Below, in pieces: positions 1,317-46,312 of a stretch of 46,312 bases of DNA; positions within the stretch are counted from its first letter, which is position 1; every line of letters begins with the position of its first letter. Below the pieces are notes generated by a model that was given only the letters and a program-made list of their open reading frames with translations, did not search any database and was not told the origin of the DNA. Source of the stretch: Flavobacteriaceae bacterium (GTDB lineage: Bacteria; Bacteroidota; Bacteroidia; Flavobacteriales; Flavobacteriaceae); contig JAPKAF010000006.1 in NCBI GenBank assembly GCA_028825365.1, positions 1-46,312 of the forward strand. The letters are read 5' to 3'. Made by a program: the position numbers and the translations under genes.

Positions 1317-2369
1317 ATGAACTATAATATACTTTTAATTAATTTTTTTTTAGCTTTTAGCTCTTTTTCTAATGACATTCATGATTCTTTTGAAAATCTT
1401 GTTGTTGGAGCAACTATTGGATTAGTGGATTTAAATACTGCAAAATCAAAGTTGTTTTTGAAAGATTTCAAATATTTAACTCCATCTAACGAGGCGAAAC
1501 AGACTATAGTTCATCCAAATTCTACTACTTGGAATTGGAGCAAAATTGATAAAATGATAGCTTTTGCAAATGAAAATAGTTTAGCCTTAAGAATTCATGG
1601 CCCTGTAAGCCCTCAATGTTCTAAATGGGCTAAAAATGATAATAGAACAAAAAAAGAACTTCTAGATAATATGATTGAGTTTATGACAGAATCATGTAAA
1701 AAATACAATAATGAACCCGCTATTAAATGGATGGATGTTGTTAATGAGACTGTACTTGCTAATGGTAAATGGTTTGGACCAAAACCAGGAGATAACAAAT
1801 GGGAAAATCCATGGCTAAAAACTGGTTTTGATGAAAACAATTTCCCATTATATATTCTTAAATCTTTCGAAATAGCCAATGAATTTGCTCCAAATATTAG
1901 CTTAGTTTATAATCAAAACGGAGGTATGCAAAAACCTATGTGGAATAAAATCAAACAATCAATCTATTATCTAAGGTCTAAAGGCTTACGAGTTAATGGT
2001 ATTGGTTGGCAGGGACATTTATTAATGCCTTCTACAAAAGATTTTGTATTAAATATAGATCAAGGAATTAAAGATTTATCTGATCTAATTGATTGGGCTC
2101 AAAAGAATAAATTAGATTTTCATGTAACTGAATTAGATTATCTAATTGTTGATAAAAACAATTTAGAAAGTGATTTGTTACATCAAAAAAACATCTATGA
2201 AAAAATAATTAAGTTATTAATTGAAAAATCAAATACAGGTTTGGTAACCTTAAATTTTTGGGATGTTGCTGAGAGATATAAAAAAGGTAAGGGATATTTT
2301 CAATCAATTTACTCTAAAGATCTTCAACCAAATCCAAGTTATGAATTAATTAAAAATATTTTAAAATAA
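1317..2369 (+). CDS. Divergent family GH10 glycoside hydrolase (endo-beta-1,4-xylanase-like), exported
   Basis: A 350-residue protein with a short hydrophobic N-terminus (about residues 4-18) that is probably a signal peptide. The GH10 (beta/alpha)8 barrel is recognisable from the strand-1 region (YLTPSNEAK, 53-61), the acid/base motif DVVNE with Glu144, WQGH (231-234) and the nucleophile motif HVTELD with Glu272; the C-terminal LNFWDVAERY matches the end of the fold. Both catalytic glutamates are present. The usual GH10 motif after strand 3 (RGHTLVWH) is replaced by RIHGPVSPQCSKW (92-104), so the substrate subsites probably differ from classical xylanases. It is the first gene of a tight operon with a GH3 enzyme (6 nt gap) and a sulfatase. 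Expected role: internal cleavage of a beta-linked, xylose-type backbone in the periplasm. The family call is firm; substrate is inferred. Confidence 0.88.
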   Translation: MNYNILLINFFLAFSSFSNDIHDSFENLVVGATIGLVDLNTAKSKLFLKDFKYLTPSNEAKQTIVHPNSTTWNWSKIDKMIAFANENSLALRIHGPVSPQCSKWAKNDNRTKKELLDNMIEFMTESCKKYNNEPAIKWMDVVNETVLANGKWFGPKPGDNKWENPWLKTGFDENNFPLYILKSFEIANEFAPNISLVYNQNGGMQKPMWNKIKQSIYYLRSKGLRVNGIGWQGHLLMPSTKDFVLNIDQGIKDLSDLIDWAQKNKLDFHVTELDYLIVDKNNLESDLLHQKNIYEKIIKLLIEKSNTGLVTLNFWDVAERYKKGKGYFQSIYSKDLQPNPSYELIKNILK

Positions 2370-2375
2370 TTAAAA

Positions 2376-25193: not shown

Positions 25194-25204
25194 TTTATGT
25201 TCTT

Positions 25205-25212
25205 TAGTTTTG
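25205..25212 (+). promoter_or_regulatory. Possible Bacteroidetes -7 element (TAGTTTTG)
   Basis: An exact TAnnTTTG match about 110 nt before the chosen start of the VPS10-type gene. No TTG was seen at the usual -33 position, and in AT-rich DNA this motif arises by chance fairly often, so support is weak. Confidence 0.25.
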
Positions 25213-25322
25213 CTACAATATACATCAATTTAAAGGACTATAATTTATTGTTATATTTAAATATATCAATTATATGTTTTAACTTTATGTTAAATAATTT
25301 ATTAATTAACACTTACACTATT

Positions 25323-28300: not shown

Positions 28301-28589
28301 TTATAATTTAAGAGATAAAATGAATAGTTTGGTTAGAGAATTTGGTGGAAGTGCTGCAAAAGCTGAGATAGGAGAGAAGGATAGATTAACTATAATGGAT
28401 CGCCTTTCTAAAGCAAGAGGTGGTTATTACGGAAATTCTTATGGCCCTACGGAACTACATATGCAAAGTTTTGATATGGCTAAAGAAATGTATAATAGAT
28501 CTAAGCCAAAAATTGATACTTTTTCTAAAGAAGTTAATTCATTAGGAAAGCTACTTGAAAAAGCAGGAGGTCCTGTTTATTTAGATTAG
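25323..28589 (+). CDS. Large exported BNR/VPS10-type beta-propeller protein (putative glycosyl hydrolase-like)
   Basis: An ATG at 25323 gives a normal signal peptide (about 20 residues, ending SSITGQ); the frame is also open from 25197, but that would prepend 42 residues carrying a second hydrophobic run, so the later start is preferred (1088 residues). The first 750 residues are two propellers with at least ten Asp-box-like repeats of the form S-x-D/N-G-G-x-S/T-W (for example SLDGGKSWKDM, SVNGGKTWKNT, TSDGGKNWTKM). A C-terminal part (about 900-1080) is helical and charged. Such proteins are annotated as VPS10/sortilin-like or WD40/BNR glycosyl hydrolases in Bacteroidota, yet no activity is established for them. 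No T9SS tail. It has its own terminator and is probably not in the PUL regulon. Confidence 0.85.
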   Translation: MKNMKLYLVSLLFIFSYSSITGQSKRDKKQKSPIESALSGFEFRSIGPAFMSGRISDIAIDPNNENVWYVAVSSGGAWKTENAGTTWQPLTDDQPFFATGCITIDPNNSASIWLGTGENVAGRHIGIGHGIFHSLDGGKSWKDMGLKKSEHLSKIIIHPENSDIIWVASQGPLWSSGGERGLYKSVNGGKTWKNTLEINEWTGVTDLVIDPTDPNILYAASWQRHRNVAGLIDGGPGTALYKSTNGGDSWKKINKGLPKSNMGKIGLAISPMDPTVLYAAIELDRREGAVYRTSNSGGSWNKMSNTVSGGTGPHYYQELVASPHVFDKIYLMNVRVLVSDDGGRNFSQMKESQKHSDNHSLTFKENDPNYLLMGTDGGIYESFDNSKNWKYVANLPLTQFYKLAVDDAEPFYNIYGGTQDNNTQGGPSRTVTRNGITNSDWYVVLGGDGHQPATEPGNPNIVYAQSQQGYINRVDRTTGEAVNIRPHEGIDEPYERFNWDAPILVSQHDPKRLYFGTQRVWRSENRGDSWSTISADLTKNEERASLPIMGRVQSFDNALDVYAMSTYNTITSLSESKTNEDVLYAGTDDGIIQYTSDGGKNWTKMTVDKLPEVPASAFVNDIKVDLHDENTAYVALDNHKFGDYSPYLYKTTSGGKKWEPIVNGLPEGTLVWRLVQDHVNPNLLFLGTEYGVYISVNQGEKWHKFSNGLPTISVRDLAIQKRENDLVLATFGRSFYVLDDYSPLRDITDSTLEKEAHLFTPRKALQYNQVMGGTGSSGGSSYSARNPSYGSTITYYLSEGHSSMKSERQKMERKLKKEDIPFPGWDALDKEMNEASSEVVLMIKNSEGDLVDVVSGPLRKGLHRVTWGLGTSISTTTTVSQNSTRSGRWGRPSGGMVSAAEPGTYQVSLFKRISGVLTEIADPVSLEVERIRENILTNPMADLHKEYNIKLAELTTAVKVSEHMFNKATARVATYERNLKQLKTNKQELTKAVYNLRDKMNSLVREFGGSAAKAEIGEKDRLTIMDRLSKARGGYYGNSYGPTELHMQSFDMAKEMYNRSKPKIDTFSKEVNSLGKLLEKAGGPVYLD

Positions 28590-33333: not shown

Positions 33334-36171
33334 TTATCTAATAACTAACTTAGATACTTTACTCTGTCCTTGAATAGTTACTTTCACTAGATAAATACCT
33401 GCATTAATAGAGCTAATATTTAAAGTGTCCGATTCTAATACTGTATTTATCAATCTTTTTCCTGTGATATCAAATACTTCAACATTTTTAAATCCACTAA
33501 TTGGGGATTGTATTGTTACATAATCTCCATTAACAGGATTTGGATATATCTTTAGATTAGATAGATCAAAATTATTAACGGATAAACCTGCACAGCTAAC
33601 ATCAAAAGTAATTGGACCTCCTTGTACAGATCCGTCAGCAGAAAGATATACATTTATTGTACCATCTGCAGATGTTACAGCCGCATCTTGAGCGCCGGAT
33701 AGAGGACCGTATAATAATTCTCCTGCTCCATTAGTTACAAACACCCAATCATAATTTGTTTCTGTTGAACCACTAATTGTTACAGTAATCTCATCTGTGT
33801 AACCATCAGAGTCTTGGTCACCAGATGTTGTTGTAAATAATAATTCAGACGAGTAATCATTAGAAATATCAAAGTTAGTCTCAAATACTGAACCTCCACC
33901 GGATCCATTAGGATAATCATATTGTGAAATACTTTCTCCACACTCAGGAGATTGAAGAGAGGTAGTAAACGTTATACTAGTCCAATCACTAGTAGACCCG
34001 TCTTCACATACTGCTCTTACCCAAACATCATAACCAGTTATTGGATAGCAATTAGCTATAGATACAGAAGGATCTGATATTGAAGTTCCTGCTTCAGTAG
34101 GTAGTGACGAATCTTCGACTGTTGAAGAAACATATTCCCAAGACACTGCTTCATTGGCATCCCATGTTATATCTGCACTAACAGCGGTAACATTAGATAC
34201 AGCTAAATTAGTGGGAGTTCCACATAATAGTTCTGTAATACTCAAGTCATATGCAACATTTTGAGGAGCTGCCCATGTTGATACTACAAAATAGTAAGTA
34301 GATCCTTCTACTACACTTAATTCAAAAGAAGCAAGTTCAGAACTACCTCCAAGTTCAAGTTCTGTAATCCAACAATTAACTCCTATATCTTCTTTATTAG
34401 CATAAACATACATACCCGCATAATTAGGAGATGTTTGGCCCTCACCAACAGATGGGTTTAAAGAAACGTTTAAGCTCATAGTTGATGTAGCAGTATATAA
34501 ATACACAACATCATCACCATTGAGGTAATATCCATTACCAGATTCACATCCAGTTGCTGTATTAGAATAATCATCTCCATAGTTAATTGTATCATCAGAT
34601 GTATTATAAGGAATACTTTCTATAATTATAGGATCATCTGCCATTGAACCAGTAGGTGGGCATATGTAAGTAAATTCAAATGATGTATTACAATTAGAGT
34701 CATCGGCAACAACATTAATATTTGTTGTTACACCACTATCATAAGGACCGAATGATAAAGTAGCAGCCTCAGTAGTAGTTTGCGTATTTACCCCATCATC
34801 AATTGTTAATTGAGTGGAAGAACCTAAATCTGTAACATCCACATTAACATAATAAATTCCTTCACCACCACTACAATTTGGATCAACTGAAGCTGTAACC
34901 GTTGGTTGTGTACATGTATTTTCAACTATAGTGAAATCATAGGCAACATTTTGTGGGGATGGCCATGATGATATAACGAAATAATAAGTTGTTCCTGATG
35001 TAACCTCTAAATCAAATACCATCGCATCTGTTGAAGTACTTGATACCATTGTTAACCAACAATTAACTCCTATGTCAGAAATATCAGTATAAACATAAAT
35101 TCCAGAATATGTAGCTGCTGGAGTTAGTGAAACATTAATAGATGCATCTGCAGATGCAGTATAGCTGTAAACAACATCATCACCACCTAAATAGGAACCT
35201 GATCCCGATTCACAGTCAGTTGCAGTATTTGTATAATCATCTCCATAATTAACTGTATCATCAGATGTTTCATATGGTAAACTTTCTATAATAATTGGAT
35301 TATCTCCTGTACTTCCAGTTGGAGGCGGGGTAAATGTTAATGTCATCCATCCGCTGTATATATCATCACAAACTGCTCTAACATAGATTTCATAAGCTGA
35401 ACCTTCAGTTAAATCACTAAATACAACTGAATTTTCTGAAGTTATAGTTCCAGCTTCGGTAGGTTCACCTGTTTCAGCTTCTTGCAAAACATACTCAAAA
35501 GATGAAACATCTGTAGCAGTCCAAGAAACTGTAGCCGAGTTGTTAGTTAAACCATCCAGTGATAGTGTTGGATTAGCACAACTTTGTGTAATCCCATTTA
35601 ATATAACATTAGCAATAGAATTTCTTATTTGCCCAGTTGGCGGAGCTGATGGATCTGGATTTGTTCCATCATTATAATAGGTTAATGCTCTAATATCAGT
35701 AGTGGTAGAACAATAAAAATCATGACTAGACGCATCATATCCTTCTTGATTTTGATCAACGGCTACTACTAAATTATCAGATCCATTGTAACTAAAAGGA
35801 TTTTCAAAATCAATTGCAACAACTCCATCAGATATTGAAACAGTTCCAGCGAACATTTGAGTTAAGTTTTCATAAGGCTCCCAAGAATCTCCATCTGTAA
35901 AGCTAGAATTAGTAGTATGAGCCATATAAACAGTCCAATCAGAGCAGCTTTCTAGTGTAGTTTCAGCAGTGGCTGTATAAGATATGCCTGAAATATCTCC
36001 TGAGCTATTTATTTCAGCTGCAGTATAAATAACCTGACTATAAGTATAGCCATAATACGGTTCTATTGGAAGTTCTTCATTTACAACAGTACCTTGTCCT
36101 ACTTGAACTTGAGAAAATACTGAAATAAAAGAAAAAAATAATAAAAAAATAATTGCGTAGTTTTTTGTCAT
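33334..36171 (-). CDS. Modular secreted protein with fibronectin III domains, an internal duplication and a T9SS type A sorting domain
   Basis: A 945-residue protein with a signal peptide (about 1-20). Order: N-terminal beta-rich domain (about 25-195); fibronectin III-like domain (about 197-281); first copy of a roughly 130-residue beta-rich repeat (about 290-420); spacer domain; second copy (about 511-640); second fibronectin III-like domain (about 645-735); CUB-like domain (about 742-870, DYPNGSGGGS and later YDWVFVTNG); T9SS type A C-terminal domain (about 873-945) with LKIYPNPV, VEVFDITGK and GIYLVKV. The repeats share PIIIES-PY-TSDDT and the VYVY/IGVNCW blocks. It should be exported by the type IX system and attached to the cell surface. 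No catalytic domain was seen; a binding or adhesion role is possible. It has its own terminator. Confidence 0.92.
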   Translation of the reverse strand: MTKNYAIIFLLFFSFISVFSQVQVGQGTVVNEELPIEPYYGYTYSQVIYTAAEINSSGDISGISYTATAETTLESCSDWTVYMAHTTNSSFTDGDSWEPYENLTQMFAGTVSISDGVVAIDFENPFSYNGSDNLVVAVDQNQEGYDASSHDFYCSTTTDIRALTYYNDGTNPDPSAPPTGQIRNSIANVILNGITQSCANPTLSLDGLTNNSATVSWTATDVSSFEYVLQEAETGEPTEAGTITSENSVVFSDLTEGSAYEIYVRAVCDDIYSGWMTLTFTPPPTGSTGDNPIIIESLPYETSDDTVNYGDDYTNTATDCESGSGSYLGGDDVVYSYTASADASINVSLTPAATYSGIYVYTDISDIGVNCWLTMVSSTSTDAMVFDLEVTSGTTYYFVISSWPSPQNVAYDFTIVENTCTQPTVTASVDPNCSGGEGIYYVNVDVTDLGSSTQLTIDDGVNTQTTTEAATLSFGPYDSGVTTNINVVADDSNCNTSFEFTYICPPTGSMADDPIIIESIPYNTSDDTINYGDDYSNTATGCESGNGYYLNGDDVVYLYTATSTMSLNVSLNPSVGEGQTSPNYAGMYVYANKEDIGVNCWITELELGGSSELASFELSVVEGSTYYFVVSTWAAPQNVAYDLSITELLCGTPTNLAVSNVTAVSADITWDANEAVSWEYVSSTVEDSSLPTEAGTSISDPSVSIANCYPITGYDVWVRAVCEDGSTSDWTSITFTTSLQSPECGESISQYDYPNGSGGGSVFETNFDISNDYSSELLFTTTSGDQDSDGYTDEITVTISGSTETNYDWVFVTNGAGELLYGPLSGAQDAAVTSADGTINVYLSADGSVQGGPITFDVSCAGLSVNNFDLSNLKIYPNPVNGDYVTIQSPISGFKNVEVFDITGKRLINTVLESDTLNISSINAGIYLVKVTIQGQSKVSKLVIR

Positions 36172-36270
36172 GGTAGTATAATTAAAGTTTAAAAAATAAA
36201 TATAATAAAAAGTTATTTGAATCTATAAATGTTATTGTTTTAAAAACAATACTTGTTCAAAAAATGATTG

Positions 36271-36278
36271 TACTTTTG
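36271..36278 (+). promoter_or_regulatory. Possible Bacteroidetes promoter -7 element (TACTTTTG)
   Basis: An exact TAnnTTTG match 41 nt before the TTG start of the CDP-alcohol phosphatidyltransferase gene. A TTG at 36253-36255 could be the -33 element although the 15-nt spacing is short. Expected start of transcription is near 36285. Confidence 0.35.
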
Positions 36279-36318
36279 TTTTTTTTAAATTAATAATCTT
36301 TAATAAATATAAATTCTA

Positions 36319-37089
36319 TTGGCAAAACTCCCAATAAAATACCAGTTTTTAGATTTATCTGACTATGGACGCTCTGGTGGAAATTGGATCGCAAGTAAAC
36401 TTCAGTACACGAGTTTTACTCCTATTCATGTCACTACTACGTTTATTGTAGCTGGGCTTATTGCAATTGGATTCATGTTATCTGGACTTTATATCCTAGC
36501 TGCCATATTTATTATATTAAAATCTGTTTTAGATGCAGCTGACGGTGAGTTGTCTCGATTAAAGAATACCCCATCTTACACCGGTAGATATTACGATTCA
36601 ATAGCAGATTTTCTACTTAACTTTTGTTTTTTATTAGCATTTTGGTATATCTCTAATGCATCAATAATTTATATGTTAATTGCTTTTTTTGGAATTCAAT
36701 TACAAGGCACTGTTTACAACTACTATTATGTCATTTTACGAAATTCTGTTGATGGCGATTCTACAAGTCGAATTTTTGAAGATAGTGCTCCAAAAGCTTT
36801 GAAAGGGGAGACTCAACAGACGGTAAATATTTTTTATAAAATCTATGATATCCTATATATCTCTTTTGATAAGATTATGTATTACATGGACAAAAATGCA
36901 AGTGACAGTCCGCCATTTCCAAAGTGGTTTATGACCCTAGTTTCCATGTATGGTTTAGGATTCCAGTTACTAATTATGGCTGGTATGCTGGTTTTTGAAT
37001 TACAAGAATATGTAATACCATTTTTTATTTACTATTCAGTTTTTATAATTGTATTTGTACTAATAAGAAAAGTGTTTTTGAAACCTTAA
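36319..37089 (+). CDS. CDP-alcohol phosphatidyltransferase family membrane protein, TTG start
   Basis: A 256-residue membrane protein with about six helices. The family motif D-x2-D-G-x2-A-R-x8-G-x3-D-x3-D is present as D72-D75-G76 ... S79-R80 ... G89 ... D93 ... D97, with Ser replacing the usual Ala before Arg. All four metal-binding aspartates are kept. It should transfer a phosphatidyl group from a CDP-alcohol to a small hydroxylated acceptor in the inner membrane; the acceptor is unknown. An in-frame stop lies only 9 nt upstream of the TTG at 36319, and no ATG occurs before residue 53, so TTG is the start. The Lrp-family regulator follows after 10 nt and is probably co-transcribed. Confidence 0.87.
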   Translation: MAKLPIKYQFLDLSDYGRSGGNWIASKLQYTSFTPIHVTTTFIVAGLIAIGFMLSGLYILAAIFIILKSVLDAADGELSRLKNTPSYTGRYYDSIADFLLNFCFLLAFWYISNASIIYMLIAFFGIQLQGTVYNYYYVILRNSVDGDSTSRIFEDSAPKALKGETQQTVNIFYKIYDILYISFDKIMYYMDKNASDSPPFPKWFMTLVSMYGLGFQLLIMAGMLVFELQEYVIPFFIYYSVFIIVFVLIRKVFLKP

Positions 37090-37099
37090 AAAGATAAAT

Positions 37100-37552
37100 A
37101 TGTTAGACACCATTGACCAACAAATTATTAAACTCTTGCAGATTAACGGAAAGGCTACTATTAAGGAAATAGCGAATAAACTAAACCTAACTACTTCGCC
37201 AATATTTGAAAGAATTAAACGATTAGAAAAAGAGGAAATAATTAAAGGGTATACAGCATTGGTGGACCCTAAAAAAGTTGATAAAGGACAAATTGTCTTT
37301 TGTAATATCAGTATGCCTAATTATAATGATAAAAATATTAAAGAATTTGAAAATAAGGTAGATTTTATGCCTGAAGTACTTGAGTGTTATCATATTGCAG
37401 GAGTTGTTGATTATCAAATGAAAGTTCTTGTTAAGGATATTGATGCGTATGATAAATTTTTACAAAAAATCAGCTTGTTGTCAATGGTGAGAGTCCATAG
37501 TAGTGTTGTTGTGCTAAGGGAAATAAAACATACCACGATTGTGCCTAAATAA
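37100..37552 (+). CDS. Lrp/AsnC-family transcriptional regulator
   Basis: A 150-residue regulator of normal family size. Residues 1-60 form the winged helix-turn-helix (LDTIDQQIIKLLQINGKATIKEIA then SPIFERIKRLEKEEIIKGY), and about 65-145 form the RAM ligand-binding domain (ECYHIAGVVDYQMKVLVKDIDAYDKF). Such proteins bind DNA as octamers and sense amino acids. It lies just upstream of the amidohydrolase/epimerase cluster, so control of that cluster, perhaps through the repeat at 37758 and 40971, is a reasonable hypothesis. It is not proven, since its own cotranscribed partner is a lipid enzyme. Confidence 0.95.
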   Translation: MLDTIDQQIIKLLQINGKATIKEIANKLNLTTSPIFERIKRLEKEEIIKGYTALVDPKKVDKGQIVFCNISMPNYNDKNIKEFENKVDFMPEVLECYHIAGVVDYQMKVLVKDIDAYDKFLQKISLLSMVRVHSSVVVLREIKHTTIVPK

Positions 37553-37745
37553 AAAAAAATTATTTTATTAGTGAGTAAAATATAACAAGGTTTAACTCTT
37601 ACTAAAAGGTATTAATCAATTACTCTAAAAAACTGTTAAATACAACTCACTTTACCTAGCATATTTTTCTTCAAAACAAAAAGAATAGCATCATATAAAG
37701 CATATTTTGCTTAAATATTGTATTAATAGCAATTTTTTATGTATA

Positions 37746-37771
37746 AATAATATTTTATAAAGAATATTATT
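37746..37771. repeat. Inverted repeat just before the first D-aminoacylase gene
   Basis: AATAATATT and AATATTATT, 9-bp arms separated by 8 nt, ending 11 nt before the ATG at 37783. The right arm lies inside the 19-bp repeat shared with the DUF1611 promoter region. The sequence is wholly A/T apart from one G, so chance is possible. Confidence 0.45.
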
Positions 37772-37776
37772 ATATT
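37758..37776 (+). repeat. 19-bp direct repeat, copy 1 (upstream of the first D-aminoacylase gene)
   Basis: TAAAGAATATTATTATATT, identical to bases 40971-40989 on the same strand. It ends 6 nt before the ATG at 37783. Candidate operator or shared promoter segment for the cluster. Confidence 0.6.
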
Positions 37777-37782
37777 TATGTC

Positions 37783-39462
37783 ATGAAAAATCTAATATAT
37801 ATATCTCTAGGATTAAGTTTAATGTTTAGTTGTTCTACTACTACTAAGAATTATGATGTTTTAATCAAAAATGGAACAATTACTGATGGATCAGGAAATC
37901 CTGCTTATTTAGGATCTGTTGGTATTAATGCAGACACTATTGCAGCTGTTGGAAAGCTAAATGCAACAGGGACTTTAGAAATAGATGCCACTGGTTTGAT
38001 AGTTGCTCCTGGGTTTATAAATGTTCTCTCTTGGGCAACCGAATCATTAATTGAAGATGGTAGATCCCAAGGTGATATTATGCAAGGTGTCACTTTAGAG
38101 GTTTTTGGTGAAGGATGGTCGATGGGTCCACTAAATGAGAATTTAAAAAAGAAATTAAAATTACCAACAGCACAAGGAGATATTAAATATGAAGTAGATT
38201 GGAATACATTGGATGAATATTTACAATCATTAATAAAACGCGGTGTATCACCTAATGTAGCTTCATTTATTGGAGCAACTACAGTTCGAATTAATCACAT
38301 AGGCTACGAGAATCGTGCTCCAACAGATGAAGAATTGGCTTCTATGGAAGAAATGGTAAGACAAGCAATGGAAGATGGTGCTCTTGGTGTTGGCTCATCA
38401 TTAATTTATGCACCTGCTTTTTATTCAACTACAGAGGAACTTATTGCTTTATGTAAGGTTGCATCAGAATATAATGGCCTTTATATTTCACACATGCGTA
38501 GTGAAGGAAATCGATTGTTACAAAGTATTGATGAATTAATGCGCATTGCAGATGAAGCAGATATTCGTGCTGAGATCTATCATTTAAAAATGGCTGGTAA
38601 AGAAAATTGGAGTAAATATGATGAAGTTGTTAAAAAAATCGATTCCGCAAGGACAGCAGGTTTAAGCATAACAACTAATATGTATACGTATGTTGCCGGA
38701 GCAACAGGGTTGGATGCTTCCATGCCTCCTTGGGTTCAAGAAGGTGGTTACGAAAAATGGGCTGAGCGTTTACAAGACTCAGAAATACGTCAAAGGGTTT
38801 TAGAAGAGATGACCACTCCAACTGACAAATGGGAAAACTTAATGTATGATGCAGGTACTTCAGATAACTTATTGTTAATTGGCTTTGAAAATGATAGTTT
38901 ACGACATTATACAGGGAAAACTTTAACCGAGGTTGCTAAAATACATGGGAAGTCACCTGAAGAAACTGCGATAGATTTAGTAATTGCAGATGGTAGTCGA
39001 GTTGGAACAGTTTATTTTTTGATGTCAGAAGAAAACGTAAAAAAACAAATAGCATTACCTTATATGAGTTTTGGATCTGATGCTGCCTCAATGACTCCTG
39101 AAGGGGTTTTTTTAAATTCAAGTGATCACCCTAGAGCTTATGGAAATTTCTCTAGGCTACTAGGTAAGTATGTTAGAGATGAGCAAATAATTTCAATTGA
39201 AGAAGCTGTTAGAAAATTAACTTCATTACCAGCTTCTAATTTAAAAATTAAAAAACGTGGTAGCTTGACCAAAGGTTATTTTGCAGATTTAGCGATTTTT
39301 AATCCTGAAACTATTCAGGACCATGCAACTTTTGTCGAACCTCATCAACTATCAACAGGAATGATACATGTATTTGTAAATGGTGAGCAAGTACTAAAAG
39401 ATGGCGTACATACTGGTGCTACACCTGGAAGGGTAGTTAGAGGGCCTGGTTACAAAAATTAA
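37783..39462 (+). CDS. N-acyl-D-amino-acid deacylase-family amidohydrolase lipoprotein lacking the HxH motif
   Basis: A 559-residue exported protein with a lipobox ending MFSC (Cys17). It follows the D-aminoacylase layout: beta-sandwich start (YDVLIKNGTITDGSGNPAYLG), GLIVAPGFIN (71-80), EVFGEGWSMGP (105-115), YISHMRSEG with His237, EIYHLKMAGKENW with His267, FGSDAAS with Asp433, and a C-terminal GYFADLAIFNPETI. The usual H-x-H after APGFID is absent (here NVLSWA), while the two downstream histidines and the late Asp remain, as does Glu110 near the position of the zinc-binding Cys of D-aminoacylase. The family removes acyl groups from N-acyl-D-amino acids or cleaves related dipeptides. It opens the cluster, right after the 19-bp repeat. 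Confidence 0.9.
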   Translation: MKNLIYISLGLSLMFSCSTTTKNYDVLIKNGTITDGSGNPAYLGSVGINADTIAAVGKLNATGTLEIDATGLIVAPGFINVLSWATESLIEDGRSQGDIMQGVTLEVFGEGWSMGPLNENLKKKLKLPTAQGDIKYEVDWNTLDEYLQSLIKRGVSPNVASFIGATTVRINHIGYENRAPTDEELASMEEMVRQAMEDGALGVGSSLIYAPAFYSTTEELIALCKVASEYNGLYISHMRSEGNRLLQSIDELMRIADEADIRAEIYHLKMAGKENWSKYDEVVKKIDSARTAGLSITTNMYTYVAGATGLDASMPPWVQEGGYEKWAERLQDSEIRQRVLEEMTTPTDKWENLMYDAGTSDNLLLIGFENDSLRHYTGKTLTEVAKIHGKSPEETAIDLVIADGSRVGTVYFLMSEENVKKQIALPYMSFGSDAASMTPEGVFLNSSDHPRAYGNFSRLLGKYVRDEQIISIEEAVRKLTSLPASNLKIKKRGSLTKGYFADLAIFNPETIQDHATFVEPHQLSTGMIHVFVNGEQVLKDGVHTGATPGRVVRGPGYKN

Positions 39463-39557
39463 TACTTCTTTCCACACTCTTCTTTAGCTTGTCTTTGTTT
39501 GAAGAAAATGAGTTTTTAAAAGTACTAATTCAATCTACACAATAAATATACAGTCAA

Positions 39558-40847
39558 ATGAAAAAAACAATTATTTTAAGTTTATCTCTGTTTATAACAG
39601 GCATTAGTTTTGGGCAGAAGAATGACAAAAAAATTAAGATGCTATCTGATCAAGTAGAACAGAAAGTTATTGAATGGAGAAGGCATGTTCATCAAAACCC
39701 TGAGTTATCAAATAGAGAATTTAAGACAGCTAAGTATATAGAAAGTCATCTTAGAAGTTTAGGAATTACGGTACAAACAGGAGTTGCTAAAACAGGGGTA
39801 GTTGGCATATTAAAAGGAGAAAAACCAGGAAAAGTAGTTGCTTTAAGAGCAGATATTGATGCACTGCCAGTTACAGAGAGAAATGACTTATTATTTAAAT
39901 CTAATATAACTACAACCTATAACGGAAAAGAAACAGGCGTAATGCATGCTTGTGGGCATGATTCTCACGTTGCTATTTTGATGGGGGTAGCAGAAGTATT
40001 ATCTCAGATGAAAAGCGATATTCATGGAACAATAAAGTTTATTTTTCAACCTGCAGAAGAAGGAGCTCCAAAAGGAGAAGAAGGAGGAGCAGAGCTGATG
40101 GTAAAAGAAGGAGTTTTAAAGAATCCTGATGTAGATGCTATTTTTGGATTGCATATTGCTGCAAGTTTAGATATAGGGAAAATAACCTATAAATCAGGAG
40201 GTATTATGGCGGCATCTCAATCGTATCAAATTAATGTTAAAGGAAAGCAAGCTCATGGTTCTAGACCTTGGGCAAGTGTAGATCCTATTGTAGCTTCTGT
40301 TCAAATAATTAATGGGTTACAAACCATTATTAGTAGAGAATCTGAGTTAACAAAAGAAGGTGCTGTTATTACTGTTGGAATGATTAATGCTGGAATACGA
40401 AGTAATATCATTCCAGAAAATGCAACCATTGTTGGAACTATTAGAACTTTAGATTATGGGATGCAAGACTTTATTAACAAGAGAATGAAAGAAATGGTTT
40501 CAGATATTGCAAAAGCATTTAGAGCTGAAGCTACAATAGAAATTGACAAAGGATACCCAATCACTTTTAATCATTTAGAATTGACTAGCCAGATGCTTCC
40601 TACACTTCAAAGAATAGCATCAAAAGAAAATGTAATAGAAATGGATGCAATAACTGGTGCAGAAGATTTTTCTTTTTTTCAACAAAAAATACCAGGACTG
40701 TATTTCTTCTTAGGAGGAAAGGCATTAGATGTAAAACCAGAAGAGGCTGCCGGTCATCACACACCAGATTTTATGTTAGATGAAAGTGGTTTTGTACTGG
40801 GAGTTAAAACATTATCTGCTTTGGCATTAGATTATCTAGAGCAATAA
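39558..40847 (+). CDS. Exported M20-family amidohydrolase (N-acyl-amino-acid/hippurate hydrolase-like)
   Basis: A 429-residue zinc hydrolase with a signal peptide (about 1-20, ending ISFGQ). Family M20D motifs are clear: RRHVHQNPEL (41-50), ALRADIDALPV (95-105), MHACGHDSH (Cys132, His134), FQPAEEG (Glu167-Glu168), FGLHI (His199) and GAEDFSFF near the C-terminus. The domain between carries the lid/dimerisation segment GKQAHGSRPWASVDP. Such enzymes deacylate N-acyl-L-amino acids or hydrolyse peptide conjugates. It is between the D-aminoacylase and the DUF1611/epimerase pair (gaps 95 and 157 nt) and could supply free amino acids from acylated forms in the periplasm. Confidence 0.93.
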   Translation: MKKTIILSLSLFITGISFGQKNDKKIKMLSDQVEQKVIEWRRHVHQNPELSNREFKTAKYIESHLRSLGITVQTGVAKTGVVGILKGEKPGKVVALRADIDALPVTERNDLLFKSNITTTYNGKETGVMHACGHDSHVAILMGVAEVLSQMKSDIHGTIKFIFQPAEEGAPKGEEGGAELMVKEGVLKNPDVDAIFGLHIAASLDIGKITYKSGGIMAASQSYQINVKGKQAHGSRPWASVDPIVASVQIINGLQTIISRESELTKEGAVITVGMINAGIRSNIIPENATIVGTIRTLDYGMQDFINKRMKEMVSDIAKAFRAEATIEIDKGYPITFNHLELTSQMLPTLQRIASKENVIEMDAITGAEDFSFFQQKIPGLYFFLGGKALDVKPEEAAGHHTPDFMLDESGFVLGVKTLSALALDYLEQ

Positions 40848-40970
40848 GGTTTTAGAATTATATCAAAACACAAAAACAGGCACATAGCCAATGAAAAAGT
40901 TATAATACAATTTAAATAGGCTCTACATCTTTGTATTAACTGGTTTTGTATATGAAACTATAATAGTTTG

Positions 40971-40989
40971 TAAAGAATATTATTATATT
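40971..40989 (+). repeat. 19-bp direct repeat, copy 2 (upstream of the DUF1611 gene)
   Basis: TAAAGAATATTATTATATT, identical to 37758-37776. It ends 15 nt before the ATG at 41005. A short inverted pair (ATAATA at 40960 and TATTAT at 40978) accompanies it, weaker than at copy 1. Confidence 0.6.
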
Positions 40990-41004
40990 AAATTCGGAAA
41001 TAAA

Positions 41005-42057
41005 ATGACTCAAATGAAGAAAAAAATAGTAATCGCAACTGACAACCTACTCTTAACTGACTATGCTAAAACTGCGCATGGTTTAATAAGAGGCACAAAA
41101 CGTTTTGAGGTACTGGCTATTATTGATGAAAAAAATAAGAATACCGATGCAGGAGAAACCCTTGATGGCACGTATAGAAATATTCCTGTAATTGCCTCAA
41201 TTGATGAAGCTATTAAAACATTTGATACTATTGATTATTTAGTAATTGGCGTAGCAACTATTGGCGGTGTATTGTCCAATACACTTTTAAATATCATTTC
41301 TGAGGCCATAACAAAGGGTATTGGCATTGTCAATGGACTTCACGATCAACTCAATGAGCGTGAAGAAATTGCGCTACTAGCCGAAGCAGCCCAAGTTGAA
41401 TTGATAGACATCCGTAAACCGAAATCGATTAAAGAAATGCATTTTTGGACTGGTGACATCTTCAAAGTTGATATTCCTATTATTGCTTTTTTAGCCATGG
41501 ATTGTGCAATGGGAAAACGAACTTTAGCCACATTAGTTGTAGAAGAATGTTTAAAAAAGAATATGCGTGCCGAAATGATTTATACAGGTCAGACAGGTTG
41601 GATGCAAGGCAATAAATATGGATTTATTTTTGACTCAACTCTTAATGACTTTGTTTCTGGGGAACTTGAACATTCCATTGTGACATGTTGGAAAGAAGAA
41701 AAACCAGATCTTATTCTTTTAGAAGGTCAATCTAGTCTTAGAAACCCCAGCGGCCCCTGTGGACTAGAATTTATTATTTCAGGAAATGCAAAACAAATTG
41801 TTCTTATTCATTCGCCAAAAAAAAAATATTATGATGATATACTTAAATGGGGAGAAATCCCTTCAGTGGAATCAGAAATCGAAATTATTGAAAAGTTTGG
41901 CTCAACAGTTATTGCCTTAGCTTTAAATACGTCTGGACTTACTAAATCGGAAGCGATATATCATCAAGCTAGATACAAAGAATCTCTAGGCATTCCTGTG
42001 GTTATGCCATTGGAAGAAGGCGTAACAAATATCATCTCAGAAATTAAAGGATTATAA
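41005..42057 (+). CDS. DUF1611-family protein, DgcN-like (candidate D-glutamate N-acetyltransferase)
   Basis: A 350-residue cytosolic protein (an ATG at 41014 would start it three residues later). The N-terminal half is a Rossmann-like domain (IPVIASIDEAI, DYLVIGVATIGG), and the C-terminal half has a P-loop-like MDCAMGKRT (165-173), YTGQTGWMQG (193-202), FDSTLNDFVSG and LLEGQSSLRNPSG (238-250), the hallmarks of DUF1611. In marine bacteria the DUF1611 protein DgcN acetylates D-glutamate, and the neighbouring DgcA epimerises the product. Here too an enolase-superfamily epimerase gene follows after 2 nt, so that pathway is the leading candidate. Family membership is firm; the substrate is inferred from context. 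It is the first gene after the second copy of the 19-bp repeat. Confidence 0.88.
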   Translation: MTQMKKKIVIATDNLLLTDYAKTAHGLIRGTKRFEVLAIIDEKNKNTDAGETLDGTYRNIPVIASIDEAIKTFDTIDYLVIGVATIGGVLSNTLLNIISEAITKGIGIVNGLHDQLNEREEIALLAEAAQVELIDIRKPKSIKEMHFWTGDIFKVDIPIIAFLAMDCAMGKRTLATLVVEECLKKNMRAEMIYTGQTGWMQGNKYGFIFDSTLNDFVSGELEHSIVTCWKEEKPDLILLEGQSSLRNPSGPCGLEFIISGNAKQIVLIHSPKKKYYDDILKWGEIPSVESEIEIIEKFGSTVIALALNTSGLTKSEAIYHQARYKESLGIPVVMPLEEGVTNIISEIKGL

Positions 42058-42059
42058 TT

Positions 42060-43130
42060 ATGAAAATAAAAAATATTGAAGTCTTTTCAAAAAACTTAGC
42101 ACTTACAAAACCCTATACTATCGCTTATAAAACCATTGCTGATGTAGAAAATGTGTTTTTACTAGTTACATTAGAAAATGGCATTGTTGGTGTTGGGGCA
42201 GCAAATCCTGACTTAGAAGTTGTTGGAGAATCCCCTTCAGATGTTTTAAAAAATTGCCAGTCAGATTATTTTCAAAAATTTATTGGTAAGAGTATAAAAC
42301 ACTTTAGGTCTATGATATATGAAATAGGAACTGCATTTCCAGATAAGCCAGGAACGTTAGTACTTTGGGATATTGCTTTGCACGATGCTTTTGCCAAATA
42401 TTTGGATATACCTGTGGCCGCAATTTATGGTCAACACCATTACTCACTTGCTACATCAGTTACCATTGGCATAATGAATGTGAATGACACGGTAAAAGAA
42501 GCAGAAGAGTATGTGAAACTAGGGTTTAAAGTTTTAAAAATTAAAACGGGGCAAGAAGTAGATCTTGATATTGAACGTATTGTTAAAGTGAATGAGAAAT
42601 TTAGAAATATTAAAATAAGAGTAGATGCCAATCAAGGTTATGAAGTTAACGATTTAGAAAAATTTATTAATGCCACAAAAAAATTGGGCTTAGAAATAAT
42701 TGAGCAACCCTTGATTGTGGGCAAAGAAGCTGAACTTGCCAGAATTGACCAACAATATCGAAGTATTTTAGTGGCCGATGAAAGCCTAAAAAACAGCAAA
42801 AGTGCTATTAATTTCACGCCTTCTCCACAACCATTTGGTATTTTCAATATTAAATTAATGAAATGTGGTGGTATTTTATCCGCATTTGAGATTGCTACTA
42901 TTGCCAAGGCAGCTGACATTGATTTATTCTGGGGCTGTAATGATGAGAGTATTGTGAGTATTACCGCAGCTTTGCATGCAGCATTTGCTTGTACAAACAC
43001 CAAATATATCGACCTAGACGGGAGCTTTGACCTTGCTGAAGACATTGTAAGTGGAGGTTTTCTACTTAATGACGGAATGATGAGTTTACCTAATAAAGCT
43101 GGTTTGGGTGTTGAATTAAAACAAACTTAA
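42060..43130 (+). CDS. Enolase-superfamily dipeptide/N-acyl-amino-acid epimerase (Ala-Glu epimerase or DgcA-like)
   Basis: A 356-residue cytosolic enzyme of the muconate-lactonising/dipeptide epimerase group. The two acid/base lysines are Lys162 (in LKIKTG, K-x-K at 160-162) and Lys265 (in FNIKLMKCGG). Metal ligands are Asp189 (VDANQGY), Glu215 (EQPL) and Asp240 (VADES). It ends with WGCNDESIVS, as in L-Ala-D/L-Glu epimerases. It inverts the alpha-carbon of an amino-acid residue. Known members act on Ala-Glu dipeptides from murein or, as DgcA, on N-acetyl-glutamate. It is 2 nt after the DUF1611 gene and 11 nt before the serine hydrolase, clearly in one operon, which favours the N-acyl-D-amino-acid route. 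Confidence 0.93.
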   Translation: MKIKNIEVFSKNLALTKPYTIAYKTIADVENVFLLVTLENGIVGVGAANPDLEVVGESPSDVLKNCQSDYFQKFIGKSIKHFRSMIYEIGTAFPDKPGTLVLWDIALHDAFAKYLDIPVAAIYGQHHYSLATSVTIGIMNVNDTVKEAEEYVKLGFKVLKIKTGQEVDLDIERIVKVNEKFRNIKIRVDANQGYEVNDLEKFINATKKLGLEIIEQPLIVGKEAELARIDQQYRSILVADESLKNSKSAINFTPSPQPFGIFNIKLMKCGGILSAFEIATIAKAADIDLFWGCNDESIVSITAALHAAFACTNTKYIDLDGSFDLAEDIVSGGFLLNDGMMSLPNKAGLGVELKQT

Positions 43131-43141
43131 TAGTATAAAAA

Positions 43142-44800
43142 ATGAAAAAACAATTTCAATTAATTCTTCTCTTATCTTTTTCCGTTTGTTCATATGGGCA
43201 GCTAAAAGAAAGTCAAGCGATAGACAGCATTTTCACGGAATGGAATAAGACAGATGTCCCAGGTTGTTCATTAGGGATTATAAAAGAGGGTCAATTAATT
43301 TATGCCAAGGGATATGGTATGGCAAATATGGAATATGATATTCCGAACTCTGCTTCTTCAGTTTTTAGAATCGCTTCAACTTCTAAACAGTTTACAGCAG
43401 CTTGCGTACTACTTCTTGCAGAAAAAGACAAACTAGACTTAGATGATAACTTAAAGAGTTTTTTTTCTGATTTCCCAGATTATGCAGAAAACATCTCCGT
43501 GAGGCATTTATTAAACCATACTAGCGGAATTAGAGATTACCTTCAAATAGCCTATTTAAAAGGACTAGGAGACGATGACTTCTATGTTGATGATAACATC
43601 ATGAAATGGTTAGTAAATCAGTCTGATCTCAATTTTCTCCCAGGCGAAGAATATTTATACAGTAATTCCGGATATTGGCTATTAGGTCAAATCGTTCAAA
43701 GAGTGGCTGGAATTAGTATGGCAGATTTTGCCCAAAAGGAAATATTTGAACCTTTAGAAATGAATAATACACACTTTCATAACGACCATACTCAAATAGT
43801 AAAAAATAGAGCATCTGGTTATGTTCCAGTTGAAAAGGGCAACTTTAAGATTAGCATGACAACCTTAGATATGATTGGCGATGGTGGCATCTTTACAACA
43901 ATAAACGATATAAAAAAATGGGATGACGCATTTTATAACTCAACGGTATTAAGTCAGGCATTTTGGCAAGAAATGACGAAACAAGGCGTACTTAATAATG
44001 GAGAAGTCATTGATTACGCTTCTGGTTTAATGATAGGTAAATACAAAGGTTTAAAAACAATCAGACACGGAGGATCATTTTATGGTTTTAGAGCAGAGTT
44101 ATTACGCTTTCCAGAGCAAAAGTTATCTATCGCAATATTTGCCAACAGAGGAGATGCTAATCCACCAAGGATGGCTAATCAAGTTGCTAATATATTACTG
44201 AAAGATAAACTTATTGAAGAGGTAGTTATTAAAGACAAAAAAGTTGAGACTGATGTTTCAGAAGAAGAATTTCAACTAAGCCAATTAGTAGGCAGCTATG
44301 AAATGCAACCTGGTGTTGTTGTTAGATTATCTATCAAGAATGACTCATTAAATGTCCTTCAAACTTGGGATAAATCAACTTATAATATTATAAAAACTAG
44401 TGGAAATACCTTTCAAATCCCAGGAATCAACAACTTAAGTTTTACCTTTTCTAATCTTAAAGATGAGTTGACACAAAGACTCACAACCATACAAGATGGC
44501 ACAGAAACAATTCTTCCAAGAAAAAAAGAAATTGAATTTTCGGGCATCGACTTAAATGATTATTCAGGTAGTTATTATAGTAAAGAATTGGATGTGACTT
44601 ATAATTTTGAGATTGAAAAGGGAATATTAAAAGCGGGAATTCAAGACAAACAATTATTGATGGATTGTAATATGAGTGAAATTGACCAATTCACAATGGA
44701 ATTATTAGGACTAGTTCGGTTTCAAAGAACGGATGGTCGGGTTTCGAGTTTTAAACTTGACTCTGGTAGAGTTAAAAATTTGTATTTCGAGAAAAAGTAA
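43142..44800 (+). CDS. Exported S12-family serine hydrolase (beta-lactamase class C/D-aminopeptidase-like)
   Basis: A 552-residue protein with a signal peptide (about 1-20, ending CSYGQ). The penicillin-binding fold (about 25-370) has S-x-x-K at Ser79-Lys82 (STSK), Y-x-N at Tyr173-Asn175 (YSN) and H-G-G at 309-311 (RHGGS) in the third motif, all intact. About 170 further residues (380-552) form two probable small beta-barrels (LVGSYEMQPG and YSGSYYSKELDVTY), as in D-aminopeptidase-type S12 enzymes. It may release D-residues from peptides or act on D-Ala-containing murein fragments. Being in the operon with the epimerase supports this, but many S12 proteins are esterases, so the activity is open. 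Confidence 0.9.
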   Translation: MKKQFQLILLLSFSVCSYGQLKESQAIDSIFTEWNKTDVPGCSLGIIKEGQLIYAKGYGMANMEYDIPNSASSVFRIASTSKQFTAACVLLLAEKDKLDLDDNLKSFFSDFPDYAENISVRHLLNHTSGIRDYLQIAYLKGLGDDDFYVDDNIMKWLVNQSDLNFLPGEEYLYSNSGYWLLGQIVQRVAGISMADFAQKEIFEPLEMNNTHFHNDHTQIVKNRASGYVPVEKGNFKISMTTLDMIGDGGIFTTINDIKKWDDAFYNSTVLSQAFWQEMTKQGVLNNGEVIDYASGLMIGKYKGLKTIRHGGSFYGFRAELLRFPEQKLSIAIFANRGDANPPRMANQVANILLKDKLIEEVVIKDKKVETDVSEEEFQLSQLVGSYEMQPGVVVRLSIKNDSLNVLQTWDKSTYNIIKTSGNTFQIPGINNLSFTFSNLKDELTQRLTTIQDGTETILPRKKEIEFSGIDLNDYSGSYYSKELDVTYNFEIEKGILKAGIQDKQLLMDCNMSEIDQFTMELLGLVRFQRTDGRVSSFKLDSGRVKNLYFEKK

Positions 44801-44868
44801 AGAGCGCTTGCAGTGAGTATATCCAACACTTTAAAAATTAGTAGTAAATTAATTATAATTTGTAAACT

Positions 44869-46312
44869 ATGAAAATTACAATACTAAAAAGAGTAACATT
44901 CATTCTAACCCTGGGATTATTGTGTTTTCAATGCAAACATGAATTGCCAAATACTCTCCTTATTCAAAACGCAATACTAATTGATGGAACTGGTTCAGAT
45001 AGAATAGTAGCCTCTGTGCGTATAAAAGGTAATACCATAATTGAAATTGGAGATTTGAAGGCACTAAAAACAGATTCTATAATTAATGCTGAAGGATTGG
45101 TTTTAAGCCCTGGCTTCATTGACACACATAGTCATCATGACTCGGACAGCCTAAGAACAAAAGAATCAGCAATTAGCCAAGGTATTACAACCATTATAGT
45201 TGGTCAAGACGGATGGTCACATCTTCCTATAAAAAACTTTATGGATTCAATTTATAAAACATCATGGTCTGTTAATGTAGGGTCTTATACTGGACATGGA
45301 AGAATAAGATATGAAGTAATGGGTGATGACTTTAAGCGTGAAGCCACTCAAGCTGAAATTGAACAAATGAAATCGTTGTTGGAAACTGATATGCAAAATG
45401 GTTCTCTAGGCCTAGGCACAGGTTTAGAATATGATCCAGGAATTTATTCGAGCACCAACGAGGTGATTGAACTTGCTAAAATTGCTTCAAAATATGGAGG
45501 CCGTTACATTAGTCACATGAGAAGTGAAGACATTTATTTTAATCAAAGTATTGATGAAATTTTAACTATTGGTCGAGAGGCTGATATCCCTGTTCAAATT
45601 TCACATTTTAAACTTGGAAGAAAAGCCCTTTGGGGTAAAGCCCCTGAAATATTAAAAAAACTGGATAGTGCGAGAACAAAGGGCATTAATGTAACTGCCG
45701 ACATCTATCCATATCAATATTGGCAATCTACAATGACTGTTCTGTTTCCTAATCGAGATTTCGAAAATCGAGAAACTGCAGAATTTGCCTTAACAGAACT
45801 AACAACTCCTGAGGGCATGATAATTAGCACTTTTGATGCAAAGCCTGAATATGAGAATTTAACTTTGGCTGAAATAGCCAAAATACGCAGTGAAGACCCA
45901 GTAACGACTTATATTGAACTCATAAGAATGTCACAAAAATTACCTGGAGAAAGTATTATAGCCAAATCAATGAGTATGGAAGATATCAAATCCATAATGA
46001 ATTGGCCTTTTACAAATTTATGTTCAGATGGTAGCCCTACTGGGCACCCAAGAGGATGGGGAGCATTTCCTCGCTATTTAGTTATGGATACTGGACAATC
46101 TCTTGAAACTAAAATTAACAAAGTGACTTTGCAAGCTGCAAAGAACTTGAATTTAAAAAATATTGGTGAAATTAAAGAAGGTTATTTTGCGGATTTAGTG
46201 TTATTCGATCTTGATTCTATAAAAGATAAAGCCACATTTGAAAATAGTTCTTTAAAGTCTGAAGGCATTAATTATGTTATTGTATCTGGCGAGATTGTAT
46301 ATTCTAATCAAA
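44869..46312 (+). CDS. N-acyl-D-amino-acid deacylase-family amidohydrolase (with HSH motif), partial at the right edge
   Basis: I translated 481 codons from the ATG at 44869; the 3' end lies beyond the window. A hydrophobic N-terminus ends LLCFQC, with Cys22 a possible lipidation site, though the lipobox is not canonical. It shows the classical metal motif PGFIDTHSHHDSD (H-S-H), then IVGQDGWS, YISHMRSED, QISHFKLG and LCSDGSP with a late Asp, and ends in GYFADLVLFD. It is a paralogue of the protein at 37783 but keeps the H-x-H that one has lost, and the segment after it differs. Expected to deacylate N-acyl-D-amino acids or D-residue dipeptides outside the cytoplasm. It follows the serine hydrolase by 68 nt. 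Confidence 0.88.
   Translation, partial: MKITILKRVTFILTLGLLCFQCKHELPNTLLIQNAILIDGTGSDRIVASVRIKGNTIIEIGDLKALKTDSIINAEGLVLSPGFIDTHSHHDSDSLRTKESAISQGITTIIVGQDGWSHLPIKNFMDSIYKTSWSVNVGSYTGHGRIRYEVMGDDFKREATQAEIEQMKSLLETDMQNGSLGLGTGLEYDPGIYSSTNEVIELAKIASKYGGRYISHMRSEDIYFNQSIDEILTIGREADIPVQISHFKLGRKALWGKAPEILKKLDSARTKGINVTADIYPYQYWQSTMTVLFPNRDFENRETAEFALTELTTPEGMIISTFDAKPEYENLTLAEIAKIRSEDPVTTYIELIRMSQKLPGESIIAKSMSMEDIKSIMNWPFTNLCSDGSPTGHPRGWGAFPRYLVMDTGQSLETKINKVTLQAAKNLNLKNIGEIKEGYFADLVLFDLDSIKDKATFENSSLKSEGINYVIVSGEIVYSNQ

Follow-up and report, generated by a model that had tools for sequence, protein, structure and literature searches.

What does a flavobacterium do with a DUF1611 protein and an enolase-superfamily epimerase whose genes stand among hydrolases of the kind that act on D-residues? 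The question is raised by seven genes at the end of a 46,312-nucleotide contig of a marine Flavobacteriaceae bacterium (JAPKAF010000006.1 of assembly GCA_028825365.1), the whole of which we call the window. D-amino acids make up a considerable share of marine organic matter and are consumed slowly, according to the available text of two papers (PMC12363236, PMC10845958), and the enzymes that return them to metabolism are only partly known. We found that the DUF1611 and epimerase genes form a conserved pair and that genes for D-aminoacylase-like amidohydrolases and S12 hydrolases recur beside it, in some loci fused with each other. The locus thereby ties the poorly understood DUF1611 family and its usual epimerase partner repeatedly to D-residue-type hydrolases. 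We tentatively read the seven genes as an accessory, Lrp-linked locus for using D-residue compounds (D-peptides, murein fragments, or N-acyl-D-amino acids), and give this reading slightly less than an even chance.

The seven open reading frames (ORFs) are consecutive on the plus strand (37100-46311) and belong to the families named in the original prediction, an earlier reading of this DNA. These family-level assignments are borne out by the ORF listing and by Pfam, in which the top family of each of the seven proteins exceeds its curated cut-off. The genes, with protein lengths in amino acids (aa), are as follows.

37100..37552, plus strand: gene 1, Lrp/AsnC-type regulator, 150 aa (Pfam AsnC_trans_reg, 57.9 bits, cut-off 25)
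37783..39462, plus strand: gene 2 (daa1), D-aminoacylase-like amidohydrolase, 559 aa (Amidohydro_3, 56.9 bits)
39558..40847, plus strand: gene 3, M20 amidohydrolase, 429 aa (Pfam Peptidase_M20 and M20_dimer; TIGR01891)
41005..42057, plus strand: gene 4, DUF1611 protein, 350 aa (DUF1611_N, PF17396, 78.5 bits; DUF1611_C, PF07755, 165.5 bits)
42060..43130, plus strand: gene 5, enolase-superfamily epimerase, 356 aa (Pfam MR_MLE_N/C)
43142..44800, plus strand: gene 6, S12 (beta-lactamase fold) hydrolase, 552 aa (PF00144, 202.6 bits)
44869..46311, plus strand: gene 7 (daa2), D-aminoacylase-like amidohydrolase, 481 aa, no stop codon (Amidohydro_3, 65.5 bits)

From gene 1 to gene 7 the intergenic gaps are 230, 95, 157, 2, 11, and 68 base pairs (bp), the gap of 2 bp being that between the DUF1611 and epimerase genes. 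The C terminus of daa2 is lost at the end of the 46312-bp contig, and the operon may continue beyond position 46312. Judged by eye, the proteins encoded by genes 2, 3, 6, and 7 appear to start with signal or lipoprotein peptides: the M20 and S12 proteins have apparent signal peptides, and daa1 and daa2 are probable lipoproteins. The DUF1611 and epimerase genes look like the core of the locus, and the M20 gene and daa1 look accessory.

The pairing of DUF1611 with an epimerase extends well beyond the window. We assembled 97 DUF1611 loci, consisting of the window, 11 loci of named genomes, 40 loci of the window's family, 40 of its phylum, and 5 plasmid loci. The family survey covered 299 genomes, 53 of them DUF1611-positive (the window's own included), and 40 of its 53 non-own places were used; the phylum survey covered 395 genomes, 68 of them positive (own included), and 40 of its 65 new places were used. 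Under limits of our choosing, an epimerase gene was counted within 4 kb of DUF1611 on the same strand, and any other partner within 4.5 kb on either strand. Many of the loci are related, and the counts are not independent events; the gene tables of the plasmids are incomplete. Genes of one locus (L088) were among the seeds of the search models, and its amidohydrolase and S12 matches therefore rest on the annotation of the record. An enolase-superfamily epimerase gene accompanies DUF1611 in 79 of the 97 loci, with a median gap of -3 bp and a gap of at most 60 bp in 68 of the 79. In 11 other loci (L065-L072, L085, L086, and L156, including Vibrio and Phaeobacter plasmids), an Orr-like pyridoxal-phosphate (PLP) racemase gene takes its place. 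Given that the two classes make up 79 and 11 of the 97 loci, DUF1611 mostly travels with a type of enzyme that inverts an alpha carbon.

The hydrolase genes, in turn, are concentrated around the window's type of DUF1611. In a quick tree of the 97-locus set, the window's DUF1611 belongs to a clade of 19 rows (98% Shimodaira-Hasegawa-like approximate likelihood ratio test [SH-aLRT] support); all our trees are quick SH-aLRT trees and carry long-branch warnings. A D-aminoacylase-like gene lies near DUF1611 in 14 of the 19 loci of this clade, the window included, versus 2 of the 78 others, and three further amidohydrolase genes, about 7.6 kb from DUF1611, are outside the count limit (L141, L143, L144). 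The corresponding counts are 10 of 19 versus 2 of 78 for S12 genes and 4 of 19 (the window, L002, L119, and L124) versus 0 of 78 for Lrp genes. In eight loci, S12 and amidohydrolase are fused as a single ORF of 840-868 aa, and daa2 is a homologue of the C-terminal half of these fusions. When 15 other genomes were searched with daa2, homologues with 45-49% identity over most of the length were found in six, and five of the six stand beside DUF1611; the genome G465 has a fragment (45% identity) that adjoins an S12 gene where the contig ends, 12.7 kb away from DUF1611. In L118, a locus of the same phylum, the gene of an M55 D-aminopeptidase precedes DUF1611 by 6 bp.

Outside the window's clade, another gene is often found near DUF1611. 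A threonine-synthase-like PLP gene is present in 26 of these 78 loci and lies upstream on the same strand in 23 of the 26 (L045-L064, L147-L149); 20 of these 23 belong to the 40 loci drawn from the window's own family. In the loci headed by this gene, DUF1611 is mostly followed by the epimerase, and some of them add a creatininase-family gene and an unassigned gene of 500 aa, which are fused in L147 and L148. Large proteins of the Sortilin-Vps10/BNR type or similar are also encoded near DUF1611 (seven ORFs in five loci, L118, L123, L136, L074, and L044, up to about 6.6 kb away); the window's own (25197-28589) lies 12.4 kb from its DUF1611 gene.

The link between DUF1611, the epimerase, and the hydrolases is seen in Bacteroidota and, on a distant branch, on haloarchaeal plasmids. 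The plasmid of Haladaptatus pallidirubidus carries, in order, a D-aminoacylase, a dipeptide epimerase, DUF1611, a second dipeptide epimerase, a small ORF, and a serine hydrolase. H. caseinilyticus has the first four of these genes without a nearby serine hydrolase, and H. halobius has epimerase, DUF1611, and epimerase, with an unannotated gap at the position expected for the amidohydrolase. In Halorussus halophilus the genes are NlpC/P60, DUF1611, epimerase, a helix-turn-helix gene, prolyl oligopeptidase, DacB, and an oligopeptide/dipeptide ATP-binding cassette (ABC) transporter ATPase, and in Haloprofundus a divergent ABC transporter adjoins the DUF1611-epimerase pair. On another Halorussus plasmid there is an epimerase gene, and no DUF1611 is annotated within the 13 kb viewed. 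The association with D-residue-type hydrolases, which the original prediction had drawn from the window alone, is thus upheld by the clade counts, the eight fusions, and the Haladaptatus plasmid set.

Which reaction might the pair carry out? By sequence, the closest solved relative of the epimerase is 3RIT, deposited as "Dipeptide epimerase" (phmmer, 7.7e-85, 288 bits). The two proteins are 41.9% identical over 351 positions and fall within a common clade of 36 rows (99% SH-aLRT) in the quick tree. Presumably, 3RIT and 3RO6 come from Methylococcus capsulatus, and we take the ligand of 3RIT to be L-Arg-D-Lys and its preference to be for cationic dipeptides. Judged by its clade, the window's epimerase is an enolase-superfamily enzyme of the 3RIT (dipeptide epimerase) type. 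In the enolase superfamily, roles are assigned to the lysines, the metal ligands, and a D-x-D motif, the aspartate pair of which is thought to bind the free amino end of a dipeptide. Across 16 aligned rows, K160, K162, D189, E215, D240, and K265 are invariant, and D318 and D320 are nearly so.

The grouping with 3RIT and the retained D318/D320 pair are what would be expected if no N-modification took place, that is, if imported L-Xaa-D-Xaa dipeptides (murein-derived or other) were inverted directly and then cleaved by ordinary peptidases, with DUF1611 acting elsewhere, for example in an ATP-dependent step on the product. The ABC transporter genes near the pair in two haloarchaeal loci, one of them of the oligopeptide/dipeptide type and accompanied by NlpC/P60 and DacB genes, also fit such a route. 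Against it stand the 11 loci with a PLP racemase as the partner of DUF1611, which suggests that the two proteins share a D-substrate. Permease genes also speak against it; they lie downstream of the pair in L009 and, with one more gene in between, in L124. The two permeases are 51% identical to each other, and that of L009 has an amino-acid-permease Pfam match. The D-x-D motif was considered as a discriminator between dipeptide epimerases and DgcA, the epimerase of the DgcN-DgcA system of Pseudoalteromonas sp. CF6-2, and was rejected because CF6-2 DgcA carries D-x-D too. On balance, we regard the direct dipeptide route as unlikely, with perhaps one chance in four.

DgcN-DgcA itself has to be weighed as well, because the original prediction took the window's pair for it. 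This system converts D-glutamate to L-glutamate, and Bacteroidetes are among the carriers of dgcN-like genes in a published survey, as stated in the available text (PMC12363236, PMC10845958 for the conversion; PMC12363236 for the survey). The reading would have the window's pair perform acetyl-CoA-dependent N-acetylation of D-glutamate and then racemisation of N-acetyl-D-glutamate. The original paper on DgcN reportedly describes acetyl transfer by the enzyme, and CF6-2 DgcA is said to act on an N-acetyl compound. As in CF6-2 dgcN-dgcA, a DUF1611 gene precedes an epimerase gene in the window, and 15 DUF1611 columns show no variation in any of the 97 rows, that of CF6-2 DgcN included; among the invariant residues are D166, G170, K171, T194-G195-Q196, D210, G219, E222, and E240-G241-Q242. 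The NCBIfam equivalogs, on the other hand, are missed by a wide margin: the DUF1611 protein reaches 123.1 bits for DgcN (NF041892, cut-off 480), and the epimerase reaches 130.7 bits for DgcA (NF042940, cut-off 400). Its best NCBIfam score, 187.1 bits for the Thermotoga-type L-Ala-D/L-Glu epimerase (NF041118), is likewise below the cut-off of 500. By BLASTP, identity is 30% between the DUF1611 protein and CF6-2 DgcN (277 columns) and 31% between the epimerase and CF6-2 DgcA (242 columns). Both CF6-2 proteins are on other branches than their window counterparts: DgcN is separate in the DUF1611 tree, and DgcA (L084) is outside the set of 62 rows (99% SH-aLRT) to which the window belongs, with a long-branch warning for L084. 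Moreover, the window's clade conserves several columns (G26, R29, D41, and T173 of the window) at which CF6-2 DgcN differs, and L076, one tested representative of another DUF1611 type within the window's family, outscores the window as DgcN (221.4 bits, still below the cut-off). Together with the placement of the epimerase with 3RIT, these results make it improbable that the pair is DgcN-DgcA proper. The original prediction saw a real, recurring association and assigned too close a relative.

We also examined the fold of the DUF1611 protein in an AlphaFold2 model (mean predicted local distance difference test score 79.9, 12-row alignment). The modelled architecture comprises an N-terminal Rossmann-like domain and a C-terminal P-loop domain similar to dethiobiotin synthetase. 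Over the whole length, the model matches 2obn (VIA Z 34.5), 2g0t (VIA Z 32.9), and 7xrj, titled N-acetyltransferase DgcN-25328 (VIA Z 28.2, root-mean-square deviation 3.4, 321 residues). The two-domain fold shared with 7xrj is a point in favor of the DgcN-DgcA interpretation. Besides 7xrj, no chain titled acetyltransferase is among the best 50 structure matches listed in either listing, which excludes nothing. For residues 156-350, the best match outside the family is dethiobiotin synthetase (VIA Z 15.0 with 3of5 over residues 156-348, then 14.6 and 14.0; 176-178 residues), a small lead over other P-loop proteins that follow closely at Z 13 to 14. In hhalign, the GK and EGxx motifs of DUF1611 and dethiobiotin synthetase are in register, at a probability of 1.3% and an E value of 0.042, which is not significant (epimerase control, 0.2% and 0.29), and a loose-threshold Pfam search of 12 DUF1611 members found no P-loop relative. 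Given the dethiobiotin-synthetase-like fold and the invariant residues, a nucleotide-dependent step is plausible for DUF1611, with the reservation that a shared fold alone shows no function.

A more specific conjecture is that DUF1611 proteins differ from ordinary acetyltransferases and are nucleotide-dependent ligases of the dethiobiotin-synthetase fold, which would join free D-amino acids to a carrier group, perhaps an L-amino acid, and so make the dipeptide for the epimerase. We consider this a long shot. If it is true, the pair would serve bacteria and haloarchaea as a general D-to-L converter driven by energy, and its substrate would be set by modular partners, such as the S12-amidohydrolase fusion, the threonine-synthase-like PLP enzyme, or the PLP racemase.

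The hydrolases bear on whether the locus deals with D-residues at all. The best PDB matches of the S12 protein are 2qmi (153 bits), which we take to be the Pab87 structure, 9sn1, the D-aminopeptidase 1ei5, and the alkaline D-peptidase 4y7p. The motifs SxxK, YxN, and HxG of S12 peptidases can be read in its translation as STSK, YSN, and HGG. The M20 protein scores 354.4 bits with TIGR01891 (cut-off 153.75) and 233.5 bits with PDB 1xmb, and from its N terminus it looks exported. The best PDB relatives of daa1 are the D-aminoacylase structures 1rjp and 1m7j (240 bits), whereas the top match of daa2 is PpOngB (222.2 bits), followed by D-aminoacylase 1m7j (209.8 bits). D-aminoacylases (amidohydrolase subtype V) have a Cys/His/His metal site, and OngB, which keeps the Cys, acts on the oxidised amino sugar GlcNAc1A, with no activity on N-acetyl-D-amino acids detected in the assays covered by the available text (PMC12017989). 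Both His columns are kept in daa1 and daa2. The HxH motif is present in daa2 and lost in daa1, and the catalytic Asp is kept in both (SDG in daa2, SDA in daa1).

The resemblance to PpOngB, together with the numerous S12 copies in these genomes, suits a further alternative, in which the family names mislead and the locus serves to scavenge N-acyl or amido compounds of another kind (amino-sugar acids, for instance), without any D-amino-acid theme. The absence from daa2 of the Cys that OngB keeps counts against this alternative. So do the repeated association with epimerase or racemase genes and the presence of M55, NlpC/P60, and DacB genes beside some loci, which point to chiral amino acids or peptides. 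We judge it the least probable of the explanations considered here.

Several observations weigh against an accessory Lrp-linked locus for D-residue compounds as well. The Cys metal ligand is missing in both amidohydrolases, with a gap after a Glu in daa1 and an Asp in daa2, and D-aminoacylase activity cannot therefore be assumed for either. The Asp also occupies this column in the ten aligned clade homologues of daa2 other than that of L002, and two haloarchaeal D-aminoacylase-like proteins retain the Cys. Seven of the 97 loci have no counted epimerase or racemase (one of them, L147, has an epimerase fragment), and in 5 of the 19 clade loci the 4.5-kb range holds no amidohydrolase gene. Close relatives of the window can lack parts of the set: L003, with an epimerase 82% identical to the window's, has the DUF1611-epimerase pair with no Lrp, amidohydrolase, S12, or M20 gene nearby, and L002, with a DUF1611 protein 81% identical, has Lrp and amidohydrolase genes with no epimerase in the 10 kb past DUF1611. 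Identity between the window's S12 protein and the fused S12 domains amounts to only 28-33%, and the nearest copies of the window protein in the 15 other genomes are 34% identical on a contig other than that of DUF1611 (G475) and 32% identical at a distance of 11 kb (G465). The S12-DUF1611 link therefore holds at the level of the family, and because there are many S12 copies per genome we do not take S12 linkage alone as strong evidence. In one genome (G418) the daa2-type gene is on a different contig from DUF1611. An M20 gene lies near DUF1611 in 1 of the 19 clade loci, the window itself, and in 0 of the 78 others. Finally, no transporter is encoded in the block.

Two of the components call for a separate remark. 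The M20 gene was considered as a core part and ruled out, since it is near DUF1611 in 1 of the 97 loci. The S12 gene of L002 (7700-9342) is apparently split into two ORFs.

The original prediction had also suggested that the combination may be new for Bacteroidota and had proposed its gene order as a check. The combination does recur in other loci, its parts being present in several lineages of the phylum, and only the exact seven-gene order was seen in the window alone. In the literature that we searched, we found no description of this gene combination (the available text of PMC12363236, PMC10845958, PMC10690619, PMC2651629, and PMC12017989 included), and the mentions of DUF1611 were, by title, Dickeya papers; most subscription papers were outside this search.

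Returning to an accessory locus for D-residue compounds, we infer the following for substrates, direction, attached group, export, transport, and regulation. The exported S12 peptidase and the D-aminoacylase-like amidohydrolases would trim the substrate outside the cytoplasm, and the small products would be imported via transporters encoded elsewhere. In the cytosol, DUF1611 would put a removable group (acyl or aminoacyl, probably in a nucleotide-dependent manner) on the amino end of the D-amino acid, the dipeptide-epimerase-type enzyme would then invert its alpha carbon, after which the L-amino acid would be freed by a housekeeping peptidase or acylase. The companion genes of other loci (M55 D-aminopeptidase, NlpC/P60, prolyl oligopeptidase, DacB, ABC transporters, and permeases) fit this reading. 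For the complete outside-to-inside route that had been suggested from the window, the block has neither a transporter nor an evident cytosolic deacylase, and both amidohydrolases lack the Cys ligand. The locus makes a question testable: which group DUF1611 places on a D-amino acid, and whether it uses ATP or acyl-CoA.

Is the locus accessory to its genome? The source assembly is a 1.43-Mb draft genome (72.6% complete) in which one DUF1611 copy was found, and DUF1611 was found in none of four congeners, all drafts of 64-82% completeness. When the DNA of 33334-46312 was compared with these congeners, genes upstream of 37100 were matched in several, and past 37100 the matches were only short pieces of M20-like and other sequence. 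The stretch 36319-37100, directly upstream of the block, takes in the site that follows the gene of a CDP-alcohol phosphatidyltransferase, which is 79% identical in the congener G679. In that genome (locus L192), the phosphatidyltransferase gene is followed by homologues of window 1317-2369 (GH10, 68%) and 2376-4718 (87%), the window counterparts of which are more than 30 kb from the phosphatidyltransferase gene. Because this gene has other neighbours downstream in the congener, the single junction available suggests a variable site into which the block from 37100 onward was inserted as accessory DNA. The M20 gene is also carried, with 96% DNA identity across the M20 region, by the close relative L013, a short contig recorded as uncultured Polaribacter that was left out of the 97 loci because its DUF1611 gene is cut. 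Exactly between the equivalents of window positions 40847 and 41005, this contig has an extra S12+DUF3471 gene (1490-3295) without counterpart in the window.

Parts of this arrangement resemble systems described elsewhere. Pab87 of Pyrococcus abyssi, an S12/CubicO enzyme, degrades peptides that contain D-amino acids and has been proposed to process D-peptides from the environment; the neighbours named for its gene are an aminotransferase, a D-aminoacylase, and a dipeptide ABC transporter (PMC2651629, available text). The window is similar in having an S12 peptidase near a D-aminoacylase-like gene, and it differs by its DUF1611 and epimerase genes, which are not named among the Pab87 neighbours in that text. 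With DgcN-DgcA of CF6-2, the window shares a DUF1611 gene followed by an epimerase gene, the DUF1611 fold and invariant residues, and an adjacent regulator gene. The regulator, however, is the LysR-type DgcR in CF6-2 and Lrp in the window, identity is about 30%, and in the 8.8 kb of CF6-2 viewed no S12 or amidohydrolase gene is annotated and an M14 carboxypeptidase gene is present. To the dipeptide epimerases of the 3RIT/3RO6 type, the window's epimerase is related by clade, by its 41.9% identity, and by its catalytic residues, which are kept. In succinylation-based D-to-L conversion with an N-succinylamino acid racemase, a GCN5-related N-acetyltransferase (GNAT) tags the amino acid, an enolase-superfamily racemase inverts it, and an M20 deacylase removes the tag. 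The logic of tagging, inverting, and untagging that we suggest for the window is alike, with DUF1611 instead of a GNAT enzyme as the tagger and with an M20 enzyme that appears to be exported.

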